Origin: Achromobacter insuavis
Lineage (GTDB): Bacteria; Pseudomonadota; Gammaproteobacteria; Burkholderiales; Burkholderiaceae_B
Direction: 5' to 3'
Length of the DNA stretch: 64,000 nt
Assembly (NCBI RefSeq): GCF_902859645.1
Contig: NZ_CADIJR010000001.1
Span: forward strand, 124,001-188,000
A program made the translations under genes and the position numbers. The notes under the pieces were generated by a model. That model saw nothing but the letters and a program-made list of their open reading frames with translations, was not told where the DNA came from and ran no database searches. Below, one piece after another: positions 4,855 to 11,074 of the stretch; position 1 is the stretch's first letter, and the number at the start of each line of letters is the position of its first letter.

Positions 4855-5859
4855 ATGTTGCTCACCCTGTTTCTGTTTTTCCTGTCCGCGGCAGTGATCT
4901 ATCTCGCCTGCGAATTCTTCGTCAATGGCGTCGAATGGGTCGGACATCGCTTCCAGCTTGGCGCCACCGCGACCGGCACCGTGCTGGCCGCGTTCGGCAC
5001 CGCCTTGCCGGAGAGCGCCGTGACCTTCATGGCCGTGGTGTTCGGCGAAACCCCCGAGCAGAAGGACATCGGCGTCGGCGCCGCCATGGGCGGCCCGCTG
5101 GTGCTGGCGACGCTGGCCTACGCCGTGGTCGGCCTGGCCCTGTGGCGCGCGCGCCGCGGCCAACCCGCGCAGGCCAACTGTATCAACGCGGACCAGCGCC
5201 GGCTGGCCCGCGACCAGGCCTGGTTCATGGGCATCTTCATTTTCAAGGTGGGGCTGGGCCTGCTGGCCTTCGCCTGGAAGCCCTGGCTCGGCATCCTGTT
5301 CCTGGCCACCTATGGCCTGTATATCAAGCGCGAACTGAGCAACGACGAGGAATGCATCGATTGCGAAGACCTCGAACCGCTCAAGCTGCGGCCGCGCGAT
5401 GACAATCCGTCGATGTTCTGGGCCGCGACCCAGACGCTGCTGGCCCTGGCCGTGATCGCCGGCGCCTCGCACGTCTTCGTCAACCAGATCGAAGTGCTGG
5501 GCATCGCCATGGGCGCTTCGCCGCACGTGGCCGCGCTGCTGCTGGCGCCCGTCGCCACCGAACTGCCCGAGATCATGAACGCCCTGATCTGGGTGCGCCA
5601 GGGCAAGGAGCGCCTGGCGCTGGCCAACATTTCCGGCGCCATGATGATCCAGGCCACCATCCCCAGCGCGCTCGGCATCTTCCTGACGCCCTGGCTGCTC
5701 GACGGTCCGCTGCTGGCCGCCGGCCTGTTCACCATGCTGTCGATCGGCCTGCTGTGGCTGCGCTTCCGCCGCGCCGGCATGAGCGTGCCGGCGCTGTCCG
5801 CGGTGGGCGGTTTCTATGCCTTGTTCGCGGCCTACCTGGGCTGGCATTTCTACGCCTGA
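4855..5859 (+). CDS. CaCA-family cation exchanger (sodium/calcium exchanger type), probably Mn2+-responsive
   Basis: An inner-membrane antiporter of the Ca2+/cation antiporter superfamily. It has the two-fold alpha repeat: GTALPES (48-54) in the first half and ATELPE (234-239) in the second, each in a hydrophobic stretch. A cytoplasmic acidic loop (SNDEECIDCEDLEP) separates the halves. Family members move Ca2+ or other divalent cations against Na+ or H+. The yybP-ykoY riboswitch upstream implies that expression rises with Mn2+, so Mn2+ efflux is the inferred role. At 334 aa it is normal for bacterial exchangers. No Shine-Dalgarno is visible before ATG 4855, so the start is less certain than the frame. 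Confidence 0.83.
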   Translation: MLLTLFLFFLSAAVIYLACEFFVNGVEWVGHRFQLGATATGTVLAAFGTALPESAVTFMAVVFGETPEQKDIGVGAAMGGPLVLATLAYAVVGLALWRARRGQPAQANCINADQRRLARDQAWFMGIFIFKVGLGLLAFAWKPWLGILFLATYGLYIKRELSNDEECIDCEDLEPLKLRPRDDNPSMFWAATQTLLALAVIAGASHVFVNQIEVLGIAMGASPHVAALLLAPVATELPEIMNALIWVRQGKERLALANISGAMMIQATIPSALGIFLTPWLLDGPLLAAGLFTMLSIGLLWLRFRRAGMSVPALSAVGGFYALFAAYLGWHFYA

Positions 5860-5880
5860 CGGACGCGGCTTGGGTTGGAA

Positions 5881-5912
5881 GGCGCGGGGTGGAACGGCCC
5901 CGCGCCTTTTTT
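5881..5912 (+). terminator. Rho-independent terminator after the cation exchanger
   Basis: A 9-bp GC stem, GGCGCGGGG (5881-5889) with CCCCGCGCC (5898-5906), has an 8-nt loop and is followed at once by six T. It lies 21 bp after the exchanger stop codon and insulates it from the mgtA leader promoter. Confidence 0.93.
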
Positions 5913-5943
5913 GCACAAAAGCGGCCTTTTCTGCCCATAAACC

Positions 5944-5972
5944 TTGTCCATCAGTGGAAACCCGCGTAAAAT
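5944..5972 (+). promoter_or_regulatory. Sigma70-type promoter of the mgtA leader operon
   Basis: TTGTCC (5944-5949) and TAAAAT (5967-5972) are spaced by 17 bp. The -10 matches at 5 of 6 positions and the -35 at 4 of 6. It lies directly after the exchanger terminator. Initiation near 5979 would leave about 26 nt before the first leader ORF and a 5' region of about 1.1 kb before mgtA. Confidence 0.65.
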
Positions 5973-6004
5973 TCCGCCCGTTATCCATCCCAGGAGCAGT
6001 CTTC

Positions 6005-6058
6005 GTGAATACCGATTCCGGCGAAAGTAGTCGATCTTGCATCGACGTCGCTGTTTGA
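6005..6058 (+). CDS. Candidate 17-codon leader ORF upstream of the mgtA operon
   Basis: The ORF begins with GTG, reads MNTDSGESSRSCIDVAV and stops at TGA 6056-6058. A strong Shine-Dalgarno (AGGAG, 5992-5996) lies 8 nt before the GTG, and the ORF follows the predicted promoter directly. Codons such as AGT, AGT, CGA and TCT are unusual for this GC-rich genome, which fits a regulatory leader rather than a normal gene. An 11-bp hairpin (6083-6107) lies just after its stop. Function is inferred from position only; it resembles no peptide I recognise. Confidence 0.45.
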   Translation: MNTDSGESSRSCIDVAV

Positions 6059-6082
6059 CAGGACCACGCAGAACTCCGTCTG

Positions 6083-6107
6083 CCGCAGCCTGTTGAACAG
6101 GTTGCGG
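6083..6107 (+). promoter_or_regulatory. Hairpin in the mgtA-operon 5' leader
   Basis: CCGCAGCCTGT (6083-6093) and ACAGGTTGCGG (6097-6107) form an 11-bp stem with one G-U pair and a TGA triloop. It starts 25 nt after the stop codon of the 17-codon leader ORF. There is no U-tract, so it is more likely a switch or anti-switch element than a terminator. The rest of 6108-6314 contains other GC-rich hairpin potential but no gene that I can support. Confidence 0.5.
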
Positions 6108-6314
6108 TTGTATCCCAAGCCCCGGGCTTCTTTCCGGGCAGCAGTGCAGGCCCACGGCTTGCCGGGATTCTCCCCAACGTAAACCGCCAGAACCGCCGCT
6201 AGTCGCAGCGCCCGCGTTCGTGCACGCCTTTTTCGTGCCCGCCCGCCATGCGCCGAGTGCCTGCGTGCGCGCGTATGCGCGAAAGCCGCTCCCCATTACG
6301 CAATGGAGGCCGCT

Positions 6315-6647
6315 ATGCGTTTCTTCGACTTGTTCCTGCGCCGCGCCGGCGTGGACCGCGCCACCGCCATGGGCCGCCGCCGCGGCACCTCGCGCCTGAC
6401 GGTCATCTGCCCGCGCGACGAACTGGGCGCCCTGCGCAAGCAGATCTGCCTGGACTTCAGCGCGGCCGGACTCGACGTGTCGCAAGTGCAGATCGACCAG
6501 GGCCGCGACCCCAACATGGCGTCGGCCTGCATCACCGTGAACTGCCCGCCCGAGCTGCGCGGCGAACTGATGTCGCAAGCCCGCCGGCTGAGCGCCAACC
6601 CCGCTGTGCGCCACGTGCATTTCGGCGCGCAACCGCTGGCGGCCTGA
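6315..6647 (+). CDS. Small ACT-like protein resembling the MgtC C-terminal domain, upstream of mgtA
   Basis: A 110-aa cytoplasmic protein with no membrane segment. After a basic N-terminus it shows a beta-alpha-beta-beta-alpha-beta pattern: RLTVICPRDELGALRKQICL, then ITVNCPPELRGELMSQARRL, then VRHVHFG. This resembles the ACT-like cytoplasmic tail of MgtC, here without MgtC's membrane domain. GGAGG 6 nt before the ATG fixes the start. It sits between the leader promoter and mgtA, so a role in Mg2+ uptake or its regulation is inferred from context. The family assignment is by fold pattern, not a search, and could be wrong. Confidence 0.6.
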   Translation: MRFFDLFLRRAGVDRATAMGRRRGTSRLTVICPRDELGALRKQICLDFSAAGLDVSQVQIDQGRDPNMASACITVNCPPELRGELMSQARRLSANPAVRHVHFGAQPLAA

Positions 6648-6676
6648 CGCCGCCGCCCGCCACCCCAGGAGAGACC

Positions 6677-6742
6677 ATGCCCAGTGCCTTAGACCCCGAG
6701 CCTCGATTGCGCCTTGTGCGCGGCGCCGGCCTGCCTGTCTGA
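6677..6742 (+). CDS. MgtL-like 21-codon leader peptide upstream of mgtA
   Basis: The ORF begins ATG 6677 and stops TGA 6740-6742. A near-ideal Shine-Dalgarno (AGGAGA, 6668-6673) precedes it by 3 nt, and it lies 29 nt after the ACT-like gene. The peptide core LDPEPRLRLVR closely resembles the Salmonella/E. coli MgtL leader [17 protein letters not shown]: acidic-proline alternation followed by a basic/leucine run. In enterobacteria such codons slow or destabilise ribosomes at low Mg2+ and let transcription reach mgtA. The codons TTA, CCT, CGA and CTT are rare in this genome, again fitting a sensor. A 325-nt structured gap follows before mgtA. Confidence 0.68.
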   Translation: MPSALDPEPRLRLVRGAGLPV

Positions 6743-7067
6743 CCCGTCCTCTCCCTTGCGAGCCGACTGGCCGGATAGTCACCCGGTCCGTACGGAATCC
6801 GCAGCCCTGAACCCCCGGCCAGGCCCGCTCGACGCGCGCCGGTTCCGCCGGCCCCGGTTCTTCCGCTAGTTTCCCGTTCCGCCTTCCGCACCCGGCGCGC
6901 CTCGACGCGATCCGGACACCGGCAACATCGCCCCGGTGCCTGCGCACGCCTGTACGTGGCGGAAACGGCCTGCCCTGAGCAGGCCGCGGCCCCGTGCTGC
7001 CCGCGCAAAGGCATGGCGGCGGCCAGCCCGTGTCTTCCAGAACAACACCAATAACGGGAACACTCCG
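6743..7067 (+). promoter_or_regulatory. Long GC-rich leader between the MgtL-like ORF and mgtA
   Basis: This 325-nt segment has no supported gene. It contains several hairpin-forming stretches, the clearest being GGCCTGC (6967-6973) with GCAGGCC (6979-6985). No U-tract terminator is visible, so if it controls read-through a Rho-dependent mechanism, as in Salmonella mgtA, is more likely than an intrinsic one. That is inference from layout. Confidence 0.45.
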
Positions 7068-9875
7068 ATGTTCAAATTCCTGAAGACCTTCTTTTCCTCC
7101 GCGGCCGGGCTGCGGCGATCGGGGCGCCACTTCCGGCGTTCCCCCATGCTGGAGCAGGGCGGCGGGCAGCTTGCCGCTTCCGCCGACTCCTCCGATGCCG
7201 CGCGCCGCGCCAACCGCCGCATGCTCGATGTGGCGCGCATGGATTTCGACGCGCTGTTCTCGATGTTCCGCAGCGGCCGCGGCGGCCTGTCCGAAGCCCA
7301 GGCCGATGAGGCCCGCGCCCGCTACGGCGCCAACGAGGTCGATCACGAAAAGCCGCTGACCTGGTACGCCCACCTCTGGCAGTCGTTCCGCAATCCCTTC
7401 AACCTGCTGCTGACCGGCCTGGCCTCGCTGTCGTGGGTGACGGACGTGTACATGGCCGAGCCCGACGACCAGTCCTGGAAGGGCGTCATCATCATCGGCT
7501 CGATGGTGGTGATTTCGACGCTGCTGCGCTTCGTGCAGGAGCGGCGTTCCAATCGCGCCGCCGAGGCCCTGAAGGCCATGGTGCAGAACACCGCCACGGT
7601 GCTGCGCAGCGACGCCGCCGGCATGGCCGAGGGCGACGCGCGGCGCTTCTTCGGCGCCACGCTGCACGCCTCGGGCTCGCGTCAGATCGAGGTGCCGCTG
7701 GCCGAACTGGTGCCGGGCGACGTGGTGCTGCTGTCCGCGGGCGACATGATCCCCGCCGACTGCCGCATCCTGGGCGCCAAGGACCTGTTCGTGGCCCAGG
7801 CGGCCCTGACCGGCGAATCGCTGCCGGTCGAGAAATACGCCATGCAGCGCGTCGAGACCGCCAACGCGCTGGAACTCGAGAACATGGCCTTCATGGGCAC
7901 CAACGTGGTCAGCGGCTCCGGCACCGCCCTGGTGGTGGCGACCGGCTCCGGCACCTACTTCGGCCAGCTGGCCGGGCGCGTGACCCAGACCTCGCGCATG
8001 CCGACGCAGTTCCAGCAGGGCATCAACCGGGTCAGCTGGGTGCTGATCCGCTTCATGCTGGTGATGGCGCCCATCGTGCTGCTGATCAACGGCTTCACCA
8101 AGGGCGACTGGCTCGAGGCGCTGCTGTTCGCGCTGGCGATCGCCGTCGGCCTGACGCCGGAAATGCTGCCGATGATCGTCACGGCCACGCTGGCCAAGGG
8201 CGCGGTGCGGATGTCGCGCCGCAAGGTGGTGGTCAAGCGGCTGGACGCGATCCAGAACCTGGGCGCCATGAACGTGCTGTGCACCGACAAGACCGGCACG
8301 CTGACCCAGGACCGCATCGTGCTCGAGCGTCATACCGACGTGTACGGCGCCACCAGCGACGACGTGCTGGCCTATGCCTACCTCAACAGTTACTACCAGA
8401 CAGGCCTGAAGAATCTGCTCGACGTGGCCGTGCTGCGCCATGCCGAAGTGGAGCGCAAGCTGGACCTGGCCGCGCGCTACCGCAAGATCGACGAGATCCC
8501 GTTCGACTTCTCGCGCCGCCGCATGTCGGTGGTGGTCAGCGAAACCGAGAACGGCCGCGAGCATCATGAACTGATCTGCAAGGGCGCGCTGGAGGAAATG
8601 CTCTCCGTGTGCACCCGCCTGCGGGTCGGCAAGGACGTGCATCCGCTGACGGACGCGCGCCGCGCCGACATCCGCCGCGTGACCGCTGACCTGAATCGTG
8701 ACGGGCTGCGCGTGATCGCCGTGGGCGTGCGCGAACTGCCGCCCACCCAGCAGGCCTATGGCGTGGCCGACGAGGCCGAGCTGGTGCTGGTCGGTTACAT
8801 CGCCTTCCTCGATCCTCCCAAGGAGTCCACCGGCCCGGCGCTGGCCGCGCTGCGCGGTTCCGGCATCGAGGTCAAGGTGCTGACCGGCGACGTCGAACTG
8901 GTGACGCAGAAGGTCTGCCGCGAAGTCGGCTTCGAGGTGCGCAAGGTCTACCTGGGCGCCGACATCGAGGCCATGGACGACGGCGGGCTGGCCGTGGCGG
9001 TGCGCGAGGCCAATGTGTTCGCGCGCCTGACGCCGGCGCACAAGGAGCGCATCGTCCGCATGCTGCGGGCCCAGGGCAACACCGTGGGCTTCATGGGGGA
9101 CGGCATCAACGACGCGCCGGCCCTGCGCGCCGCCGACGTCGGCATTTCGGTGGACTCGGCGGTGGATATCTCGAAGGAAGCCGCCGACATCATCCTGCTG
9201 GAAAAGAGCCTGATGGTGCTGGAGGACGGCGTGATCGAAGGCCGCAAGACCTTCTGCAACATGCTCAAGTACCTGAAGATGACCGCCAGCTCCAATTTCG
9301 GTAACGTCTTCTCGGTGCTGGTGGCCAGCGCGTTCCTGCCGTTCCTGCCGATGCTGCCGATCCACCTGCTGCTGCAGAACTTGATGTACGACATCTCGCA
9401 GACCGCCATTCCCTTCGACAATGTCGACGAGGAACTGCTGAAAAAACCGCAGCAATGGGACCCCGCAGGACTAGGTCGATTCATGGTGTTCTTCGGCCCG
9501 ATCAGCTCCATCTTCGACATCACCACCTACGCGCTCATGTGGTACGTATTCCAGGCCAATGCGCCCGAGCACCAGACGTTGTTCCAATCCGGCTGGTTCG
9601 TCGAAGGGCTGTTGTCGCAGACGCTCATCGTGCATATGATCCGCACACGCAAGATCCCGTTCCTGCAAAGCCGCGCCGCGTGGCCGTTGATGCTGATGAC
9701 GGTCATGGTGGTCGGACTGGGGTTGTTCCTGCCGTTCTCGCCGCTGGCCGAGTACTTCCAGCTGCAGGCGCTGCCGTGGAGCTATTTCCCCTGGCTGGTC
9801 GGCATCCTGCTGAGCTACTGCGTGCTGACCCAATTGCTCAAGGGCATCTGGGTGCGTCGCTATGGCTGGCAATAG
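7068..9875 (+). CDS. mgtA: Magnesium-importing P-type ATPase
   Basis: An inner-membrane P-type ATPase of the Mg2+-transporting (IIIB) subgroup. Visible landmarks in order are the actuator motif ALTGES (246-251), the TM4 segment AIAVGLTPEMLPMIV (357-371) typical of MgtA/MgtB, the phosphorylation site CTDKTGTLT (Asp407), and the hinge GDGINDAPAL (about 678-687). The C-terminal membrane region follows. At 935 aa it is slightly longer than E. coli MgtA because of a basic N-terminal extension. ATG 7068 is chosen because MFKFLKTFF follows a weak GGGAA and upstream residues look non-coding. The leader suggests Mg2+-dependent expression. Confidence 0.95.
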   Translation: MFKFLKTFFSSAAGLRRSGRHFRRSPMLEQGGGQLAASADSSDAARRANRRMLDVARMDFDALFSMFRSGRGGLSEAQADEARARYGANEVDHEKPLTWYAHLWQSFRNPFNLLLTGLASLSWVTDVYMAEPDDQSWKGVIIIGSMVVISTLLRFVQERRSNRAAEALKAMVQNTATVLRSDAAGMAEGDARRFFGATLHASGSRQIEVPLAELVPGDVVLLSAGDMIPADCRILGAKDLFVAQAALTGESLPVEKYAMQRVETANALELENMAFMGTNVVSGSGTALVVATGSGTYFGQLAGRVTQTSRMPTQFQQGINRVSWVLIRFMLVMAPIVLLINGFTKGDWLEALLFALAIAVGLTPEMLPMIVTATLAKGAVRMSRRKVVVKRLDAIQNLGAMNVLCTDKTGTLTQDRIVLERHTDVYGATSDDVLAYAYLNSYYQTGLKNLLDVAVLRHAEVERKLDLAARYRKIDEIPFDFSRRRMSVVVSETENGREHHELICKGALEEMLSVCTRLRVGKDVHPLTDARRADIRRVTADLNRDGLRVIAVGVRELPPTQQAYGVADEAELVLVGYIAFLDPPKESTGPALAALRGSGIEVKVLTGDVELVTQKVCREVGFEVRKVYLGADIEAMDDGGLAVAVREANVFARLTPAHKERIVRMLRAQGNTVGFMGDGINDAPALRAADVGISVDSAVDISKEAADIILLEKSLMVLEDGVIEGRKTFCNMLKYLKMTASSNFGNVFSVLVASAFLPFLPMLPIHLLLQNLMYDISQTAIPFDNVDEELLKKPQQWDPAGLGRFMVFFGPISSIFDITTYALMWYVFQANAPEHQTLFQSGWFVEGLLSQTLIVHMIRTRKIPFLQSRAAWPLMLMTVMVVGLGLFLPFSPLAEYFQLQALPWSYFPWLVGILLSYCVLTQLLKGIWVRRYGWQ

Positions 9876-9893
9876 TCACTATTGATACACCTG

Positions 9894-9915
9894 GCGGCGG
9901 GCAGGCGCCCGCCGC
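9894..9915 (+). repeat. GC-rich hairpin between mgtA and the porin gene
   Basis: GCGGCGGGC (9894-9902) and GCCCGCCGC (9907-9915) form a 9-bp stem with a 4-nt loop, 19 bp after the mgtA stop. There is no following T-run, so it may only attenuate or stabilise the message and the porin could be partly co-transcribed with mgtA. Confidence 0.55.
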
Positions 9916-9967
9916 GGATTCAATACCTCCGGTGGTGGCGGCGCCACCCCGGATTCTGGAGAGAAGC

Positions 9968-11074
9968 ATGAAAATCTCGACTGTTGCCACGACGCTCATG
10001 GCGGGCGCCGCCTGGCTTCCGCTGGCGGCCAATGCGGCCGGTGATGGCCCGGGCATCCAACTCTACGGCGTGGTCGATGCGGGCATCGCCACCACCCATA
10101 CCTCCGGGCAGGGCACCCACAATGGCGTCCTCAACGGCGGCTTGACCGACTCCCTGTGGGGCCTGCGTGGTTCCGAGGACCTGGGCGACGGCTGGAGCAC
10201 CCGCTTCCAGCTCGAAAGCGGCTTCGACCCGTCCACCGGCAAGCGCGCCGACGACGACCGCATGTTCAACTACGGCGCCTGGGTCGGACTGGCCCATGAC
10301 AGCTACGGCGACCTGCGCCTGGGGCGCCAGTACACCGTCGGCAAGACCTACGGCAACGCGCTGGAGCTGGCCTCCTGGAAGGAAATGGGCATGGGCGCCA
10401 CCTTCAAGGCCTCGGACAACTACCAGTTCAGCAACCTGGTCAACTACTACACGCCCACCTGGCAGGGTTTCCAGGCGGGCATCGGCTATTCGTTCGACGC
10501 CGACGACAGCAACCGCTTCAAGACCGCGGCCAACAACCGCGCCCTCAGCCTGGGCCTGAAATACGAGGAAGGCCCCTTGCTGGCGGTCGCCACCTGGGAC
10601 CAGCTGCGCCTGGCCGAGCCGATCCAGGGCAGCAGCGGCCGGCCGCAGGCGGTGCAACTGGGCGCTTCCTATGACTTCGAGCTGTTCAAGGTGTCGGCGG
10701 GATGGTCGCGCCAGCGCAACGGCTACGTTGGCCTGGACGGCGGCGATCCGGACAACCTGGGCCGGAACCTGGGGCCGGCGGCCTTCGCGCGCGGCGGCAC
10801 CGTCGACGCCTGGCTGCTGGGCGCCAGCGTGCCGGTCGGCCACGGCGCCGTGGTGGTGCAGTGGTCGCTGGCGCGTCCCGACTGGAAATGGGAGGACGGT
10901 TCGAGCGCGCGCAATGCGCAATTGGTGACATTGGGGTATACGTATGACCTGTCGCCGCGCACCACGCTCTATGCGTTCGCCGGCTACACGTCCAATTACA
11001 CCCTGGACAACCAGTTCGACCCTGGCCATTCCCACACGTCGCGCTTCGGTACGGGTATTTCGCACCGGTTCTGA
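9968..11074 (+). CDS. Gram-negative general porin (Neisseria/Burkholderia type)
   Basis: An outer-membrane trimeric porin. A Sec signal peptide ends at AANA (cleavage near residue 22), and the mature protein opens with IQLYGVVDAGI, the standard first strand. It continues with SLWGLRGSEDLGDGWSTRFQLESGF and the LRLGRQ loop region, and ends with a terminal phenylalanine (FGTGISHRF) as the BAM complex requires. It has 368 aa. The Shine-Dalgarno GGAGAG precedes ATG 9968. It lies 92 bp after mgtA on the same strand, so it may supply outer-membrane permeability for the same cation; that is inference. Confidence 0.9.
   Translation: MKISTVATTLMAGAAWLPLAANAAGDGPGIQLYGVVDAGIATTHTSGQGTHNGVLNGGLTDSLWGLRGSEDLGDGWSTRFQLESGFDPSTGKRADDDRMFNYGAWVGLAHDSYGDLRLGRQYTVGKTYGNALELASWKEMGMGATFKASDNYQFSNLVNYYTPTWQGFQAGIGYSFDADDSNRFKTAANNRALSLGLKYEEGPLLAVATWDQLRLAEPIQGSSGRPQAVQLGASYDFELFKVSAGWSRQRNGYVGLDGGDPDNLGRNLGPAAFARGGTVDAWLLGASVPVGHGAVVVQWSLARPDWKWEDGSSARNAQLVTLGYTYDLSPRTTLYAFAGYTSNYTLDNQFDPGHSHTSRFGTGISHRF

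Follow-up and report, generated by a model that had tools for sequence, protein, structure and literature searches.

A conserved DPEP-type leader ORF between an MgtC-C-like gene and mgtA in Achromobacter, and a structured leader at the head of the same locus

The leader peptides closest to those considered here, MgtL and MgtQ, have been described from enterobacteria (PMC11282234, PMC8092293). According to PMC11282234, the EPDP sequence of MgtL destabilises ribosomes and EttA counters this effect; acidic residues are important when they fall among the first 30, and the targets of EttA are characterised by a DxE motif. The mgtQ ORF lies between mgtC and mgtB of Salmonella, its Asp2 and Glu5 are required for mgtB translation, and stem-loops 1:2 and 3:4 versus 2:3 control the mgtB ribosome-binding site (RBS); its authors note that ribosome destabilisation itself was not directly demonstrated there (PMC8092293). 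Further upstream in that system, mgtM and mgtP are tandem attenuators 5′ of mgtC, as described in PMC3641672. Among the open-licence literature matches listed, judged from titles and the starts of abstracts, none reports a leader ORF of mgtA from beta-proteobacteria.

The window analysed here is a 64,000-nt stretch of Achromobacter insuavis (contig NZ_CADIJR010000001.1, positions 124,001 to 188,000), and all of its features described below lie on the forward strand. Its mgtA gene (7068..9875) encodes a P-type Mg2+ ATPase of 935 aa that matches TIGR01524 with 1367.6 bits (cut-off 610.75); mgtA-type proteins were matched in 93 of the 268 family genomes. A consensus scan of 5850-7080 found one sigma-70-like site, the probable operon promoter TTGTCC-N17-TAAAAT at 5944..5972, where 0.1 were expected. 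With small changes, the site is recognisable within the 60 nt 5′ of leader ORF 1 in all 30 Achromobacter loci that were read. The simple consensus scan of the same interval gave no intrinsic-terminator-like site (0.9 expected); both an intrinsic terminator 5′ of mgtA and a separate mgtA promoter within the leader were rejected on these scans. Because the sole sigma-70-like site precedes everything and no intrinsic-terminator-like site follows it, the promoter, leader ORF 1, a gene for a 110-aa protein, leader ORF 2 and mgtA apparently stand in this order in a single operon.

The 110-aa gene (6315..6647) likely encodes a stand-alone domain resembling the C-terminal domain of MgtC/SapB proteins, an identity that rests on Pfam and genome context. 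Twelve of twelve aligned members matched PF21770 (MgtC_SapB_C) at E ≤1, with a best E of 0.0041, and the window's own protein matched at E 0.045 with 14.7 bits, below the cut-off of 27. Relatives of the 110-aa protein were found at E 1e-5 in 135/268 family genomes. In the window's own genome, another gene of this type lies on contig C115 (L264), just 5′ of a full-length MgtC gene.

Leader ORF 2 (6677..6742) has 21 codons, runs from an ATG at 6677 to a TGA at 6740-6742 and encodes MPSALDPEPRLRLVRGAGLPV. It is led by its own Shine-Dalgarno (SD) sequence, AGGAGAG at 6667..6673, which is largely conserved, and 325 nt separate its stop from the mgtA start at 7068, as the original prediction had stated. 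The prediction that it is an MgtL-like leader ORF of mgtA is supported, with two amendments: another leader ORF precedes it in the operon, and its positional analogue is mgtQ more than mgtL. Neither this upstream leader ORF nor the neighbouring 110-aa gene figured in the original prediction. When 6648-7067 was shuffled 5000 times, an SD-led ORF of 10-40 codons arose in 12% of the shuffles, and one carrying an acid-x-acid-Pro motif in 3.

Leader ORF 2 is confirmed as real and conserved. A DNA query with 6300-7300 matched 43/43 Achromobacter-group genomes, and in the alignment of all 43 leaders the ATG and frame are kept in every one, with exactly 21 codons in 42; the exception, L031, has 22 codons through an in-frame insertion of 3 nt. 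A search with the core pattern allowing ≤3 mismatches returned 43/268 family genomes, precisely the 43 Achromobacter. In the sister genus Bordetella, whose genomes here include B. trematum, B. ansorpii and genomospecies 12 and 13, a diverged homologue sits at the same place, as judged by synteny, in 8/8 mgtA loci examined; these represent 8 of the 9 genomes of the genus with any match (the ninth, G090, with a 44% match, was left out). The Bordetella homologues begin MPATADPEPRWR, MPATSDPEPRWR, MPNSDEPEPRLR, MPGAIDSEPRLR or MPGIDSEPRLR. The motif acid-x-acid, mostly DPEP, is present in 51/51 leaders (43 Achromobacter and 8 Bordetella), and acid-x-acid-Pro in 50/51. Loss of the ORF or of its DPEP core with the flanks retained, the outcome that would have spoken against the original prediction, was looked for and did not appear in either genus.

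The conservation is uneven along the ORF. In the 43 Achromobacter leaders, residues 1-4, 6, 7, 10, 12 and 16 are invariant, position 8 is occupied by E in 34 leaders and D in 9, position 11 by L in 35 and S in 8, and the remaining changes are concentrated at codons 13-15, 17 and 19-21, so that the N-terminal half is strongly conserved while the C-terminal part drifts. A product that functions in trans as a protein of 21 aa would account for the strongly conserved N-terminal half; the drifting C-terminal part and the range of 20 to 36 aa among the Bordetella homologues speak against such a protein, and of all the readings considered here we give this one the least credence, regarding it as extremely improbable.

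A different reading takes the conserved block to be an RNA structure or a protein or DNA site, with the ORF incidental. It is in keeping with the synonymous positions of codons 5, 6, 9, 10 and 12, which are nearly unvarying in Achromobacter, but it does not sit well with the coding pattern. Start, frame and stop are kept in 51/51 leaders, and the length changes are in-frame (+3 in L031; −3 in L090 relative to its close relatives). Third positions vary at codons 2, 3, 7 and 8, synonymously at the first three and with swaps confined to E/D at codon 8, and there is no promoter-like site at the block. We consider an incidental ORF very unlikely. Since GAC, CGA, CGC, TTA and CCT are kept while other third positions vary, the peptide is constrained, together with the nucleotides at some codons; with several synonymous positions (GAC, CCT, CGA, TTA) conserved too, some of this constraint may act at the RNA or codon level instead of on the peptide.

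Codon usage bears on this point. In the window, the shares among synonyms are 0.5% for TTA, 1.3% for AGT, 2.2% for CGA, 2.8% for CTT and 3.3% for CCT (16,135 codons from 41 ORFs picked by length and third-position GC), so the original prediction was right that TTA, CCT, CGA and CTT are rare. Their conservation differs: the core codons GAC CCC GAG CCT CGA (D-P-E-P-R, 6692..6706) include the CGA that follows the acidic core in 51/51 leaders (8/8 Bordetella) and the CCT kept in 49/51 (42/43 Achromobacter, 7/8 Bordetella), while TTA is kept in 42/43 Achromobacter and 0/8 Bordetella at the corresponding place, and CTT in just 3/43 Achromobacter. Three codons never change in Achromobacter: GAC, CGA and, at codon 12, CGC. 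Retention of the rare CCT and CGA is what a classical attenuator would show. There, a shortage of charged or properly modified tRNA halts the ribosome at Pro, Arg or rare codons, and this stall determines how the RNA folds, as in mgtP, which responds to proline limitation (PMC3641672). Leader ORF 2, however, has no run of Pro codons, and the acid-x-acid motif is present in 51/51 leaders whereas its prolines are replaced, the first by Ser in 3/8 Bordetella and the second by Ser in L031. A tRNA-dependent stall is thus unlikely.

The best reading of leader ORF 2 is, by analogy, a ribosome-destabilisation leader of the MgtL/MgtQ type, for which a response to Mg2+ is predicted. The likeness to MgtL was claimed in the original prediction, and we examined it with a scan of 61 loci from named organisms (L183-L243) for SD-led ORFs of 8-32 codons within 900 nt 5′ of the ATPase, retaining those with an acidic residue or a SSS/CSS-type motif near the start; 20 of the 61 had no ORF passing this filter. 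Of 17 Enterobacterales loci, 12 gave ORFs starting MDPDP, MEPDP or MDPEP and 5, from Yersinia, VDPVP. The ORF found for Salmonella diarizonae was MDPEPTPLPRWRIFLFR; this locus adjoins a treR-looking gene, judged by eye. Because a like scan of their loci gives D/E-P-D/E-P starts, the DPEP core is the same as that of the enterobacterial leaders. Leader ORF 2 further resembles MgtL in having its own SD, in lying ahead of mgtA and in carrying an acid-Pro-acid-Pro core in the window and most relatives, and DPEPRLR or DPEPRWR may be set beside DPEP....PRWR of MgtL, both with an Arg/Leu/Trp-rich tail. The placement of the core did not hold up as MgtL-like: it is at residues 2-5 in MgtL and at 6-9 in leader ORF 2 (5-8 in L090). 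Moreover, leader ORF 2 is internal to its operon, unlike MgtL, and the likeness rests on few residues. The shared core may reflect descent or convergence. Because it lies away from the N-terminus, and with a common origin no more than possible, we have not filed leader ORF 2 as a member of MgtL.

By position, the closest analogue of leader ORF 2 is mgtQ rather than mgtL. As MgtQ does in mgtCBRU, it sits between a gene likely to be of mgtC type and the gene of a P-type Mg2+ ATPase, contains acidic residues, and is followed by an inverted repeat in which the RBS of the transporter gene might be hidden. This repeat covers the mgtA RBS next to the ATG (7055..7067) and is conserved, with 4 pairs in 38/51 leaders, 3 pairs in 12 and 2 pairs in 1. 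The two differ in that MgtQ has 8 codons with Asp2 and Glu5, whereas leader ORF 2 has 21 codons with DPEP at 6-9 and belongs to beta-proteobacteria, and in that the gene 5′ of mgtQ is mgtC, that 5′ of leader ORF 2 an MgtC C-terminal-like domain only.

Downstream of the core, folding predicts a hairpin at 6707..6804, whose 5′ arm runs from codon 11 through the stop codon and whose 3′ arm extends to GTACGGAATCCGCAG. In foldings of the 51 leaders the effect was modest, with a mean z of −1.8 and z < −2 in 16, and the bases of the stop codon paired downstream with a mean probability of 0.67 (>0.8 in 12). The alignment gave no covariation support for this hairpin, the one two-sided cell being equal to the shuffle maximum. 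RNAalifold of the whole leader returned a long-range fold, which we did not trust.

With the analogy to MgtL and MgtQ, we regard leader ORF 2 as a probable translation-based regulator that acts in cis on mgtA, with destabilisation of the ribosome at DPEP as the sensor step. In such a scheme, a ribosome initiating at 6677 would make MPSAL and then D-P-E-P, and the alternating acidic and proline residues near the N-terminus would destabilise it, more so at low Mg2+. CGA is a slow codon. This codon and the hairpin, met ~12-15 nt ahead, may lengthen the destabilised state. At high Mg2+ the surviving ribosome would unfold the hairpin ahead of it, stop codon included, and at low Mg2+ the ribosome would drop off and the hairpin would stay. 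The two RNA states would decide either transcription into mgtA, by Rho, which we propose because no intrinsic terminator was seen, or the freedom of the mgtA RBS; we infer the drop-off, its dependence on Mg2+ and which of the two states is ON. Simple translational coupling would instead have ribosomes from the 110-aa gene re-initiate at leader ORF 2 and so hold the message open towards mgtA, and the ORF indeed starts 29 nt 3′ of the 110-aa stop (6647) with its own SD. With 325 nt still left before mgtA, and with a conserved DPEPR core for which coupling has no need, this role is very improbable. On the preferred reading of ribosome destabilisation, a DPEP leader conserved across Achromobacter and Bordetella would make destabilisation by acidic and proline-containing nascent chains a more general Mg2+ readout, and the natural variants DPEP, DSEP and EPEP would serve to test which residues matter.

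Leader ORF 1 (6005..6058) starts with GTG, encodes VNTDSGESSRSCIDVAV and is preceded by the SD AGGAG at 5992-5996. It was found in 30/30 Achromobacter loci long enough to read, of 43. ORFs of this type precede mgtA in many genera (for example VDSSSSRSCIGHTRAR and VGTCSSDSSRPV), Pandoraea among them, so that relatives of leader 1 are present 5′ of mgtA in many, not all, of the Burkholderiales examined and in some Pseudomonas. Four of the five Pseudomonas mgtA leaders (L195, L197, L201 and L202) contain an ORF of the VGTCSSDSSRPV type, which resembles leader 1 of distant Burkholderiales, and three of them were also matched by the covariance model described below; in the fifth, L218, the scan found no leader-1-type ORF. 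The association extends to the 110-aa gene: where mgtA is elsewhere or was not found, four of five genomes have a leader-1-type ORF 5′ of this gene without an adjacent mgtA (VNTDSGDSSRSCIDVAA, VNTDSGDSSRSFIDVAA, VNSDSGDGNSRLC and VNPDPGDSASRS), and the fifth, L268, has none there.

To describe the RNA, a covariance model was built from 9 sequences and searched against 81 sources at E ≤0.5. It gave 42 sense matches, a count that includes the 9 building sequences: 27/40 family leaders, 14/40 order leaders and the window itself, weakly (E 0.15). Five further matches, antisense to true ones, were dropped; 26/40 order leaders and 13/40 family leaders had no match at this threshold. The model contains hairpin P1 within the ORF (GTCGAT-CTTGC-ATCGAC, 6030..6046; pairing in the window by inspection) and helix 1:2 (6058..6093), in which 6058-6072 pairs with 6079-6093. 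In 41 sequences excluding the window, P1 is paired in 97.4% of cells and shows two-sided changes in 5/6 pairs. For P1 and helix 1:2 together, 18/20 pairs have two-sided changes, and 101 two-sided cells were counted versus 27.2 in shuffles, 0/500 of which were as high, although the alignment had been fitted to the tested structure, which favours it. Helix 2:3 (6083..6107; 6083-6092 with 6098-6107, in the window by inspection) is exclusive with 1:2, sharing strand 2, and lies outside the model. Its cells are 83.1% paired, with 30 two-sided cells versus 13.2 shuffled (0/500), but when pairs showing two-sided changes are counted it does not exceed the shuffles (6 vs 5.5). The covariation is thus strong for the in-ORF hairpin and the helix overlapping the stop, and weaker for the alternative helix. 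Strand 1 overlaps the leader-1 stop codon in 34/41 rows; of the other 7, 3 have no SD-led ORF and 4 were scored on a different ORF. Mean fold z over 36 leaders, with one window row offset by one base, was −2.4 for 1:2 and −3.1 for 2:3.

Leader 1 as an attenuator is well supported by this RNA evidence. In a selected set of its peptides, 35/36 carry an acidic residue somewhere in positions 2-9, which is suggestive only as a clue to the signal; three leaders whose ORFs have strongly diverged (L106, L109 and L143) were left out of this set and of that used for folding. The frame-register test, in which the pattern failed on 2/36, is biased because the ORFs had been chosen by peptide pattern, and matches of model R1 are a fairer test. 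In 300 order genomes, R1 matched 19 places in at least 16 genomes, a lower bound under strict filters, and 14/19 places lie within ~1.6 kb 5′ of an mgtA match on the same strand. As for the other five, L163 and L164 are 5′ of an apparent duplicated ABC permease, L171 is by eye 5′ of a porin-like gene, L170 is by eye an inverted copy behind mgtA, and L165 is the remaining one. Model R2 had no match in 369 class genomes and likewise missed the window's own genome, and is therefore uninformative.

Known Mg2+ riboswitches were considered as well. For the M-box (ykoK) or another Rfam Mg2+ riboswitch, positions 5500-11000 of the window gave one chance match at E 5, and the candidate was rejected. 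The six Rfam matches in 16 relatives included none to a Mg2+ riboswitch and none at the gathering score over either leader. Leader 1 would be a new regulatory RNA family, with covariation, no Rfam match and direct access to assay, and is arguably more novel than leader ORF 2.

With both leaders in place, the locus looks like an arrangement of tandem attenuators as in Salmonella mgtCBR, made from different parts, and leader 1 would be the upstream, first attenuator of the whole operon. As with mgtM and mgtP, the leader ORFs belong to an operon that combines an mgtC-type gene with one for a Mg2+ ATPase, and one of them ends in the left arm of a stem-loop. Unlike those, leader 1 has no Pro run, and it has a GTG start, an Asp/Ser/Cys-rich N-terminus and an in-ORF hairpin, with no Rfam match. 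Tentatively, and with somewhat less than even confidence, we suggest that beta-proteobacteria and some Pseudomonas evolved a translation-coupled Mg2+ attenuation of their own, apart from the enterobacterial one. At its base would be the structured RNA of leader 1, in which an Asp/Ser-rich peptide started at GTG, together with the hairpin inside its ORF, would decide whether ribosomes get as far as the stop codon, located in strand 1 of the 1:2/2:3 switch; this RNA would control mgtA, the gene for the stand-alone MgtC-C domain and perhaps also a porin. In Achromobacter and Bordetella the DPEP-type leader would have been added, so that ribosome destabilisation as a gauge of Mg2+ would have arisen at least twice.

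Two further ORFs were seen along the way. The leader L143 (G397:C4:122580-123660) contains a short ORF, MDPDPSRSCPDPSD, in which a DPDP start is joined to the SRSC core known from leader 1; it may be an intermediate form linking the two types of leader. The window's own genome also has a second mgtA-type gene, 57% identical, at G000:C1:310451-313159, which is preceded (leader L109) by an acidic SD-led ORF, VEDDGSTRTHGARRV; similar ORFs are present in two further Achromobacter copies that were fetched (L110 and L111).
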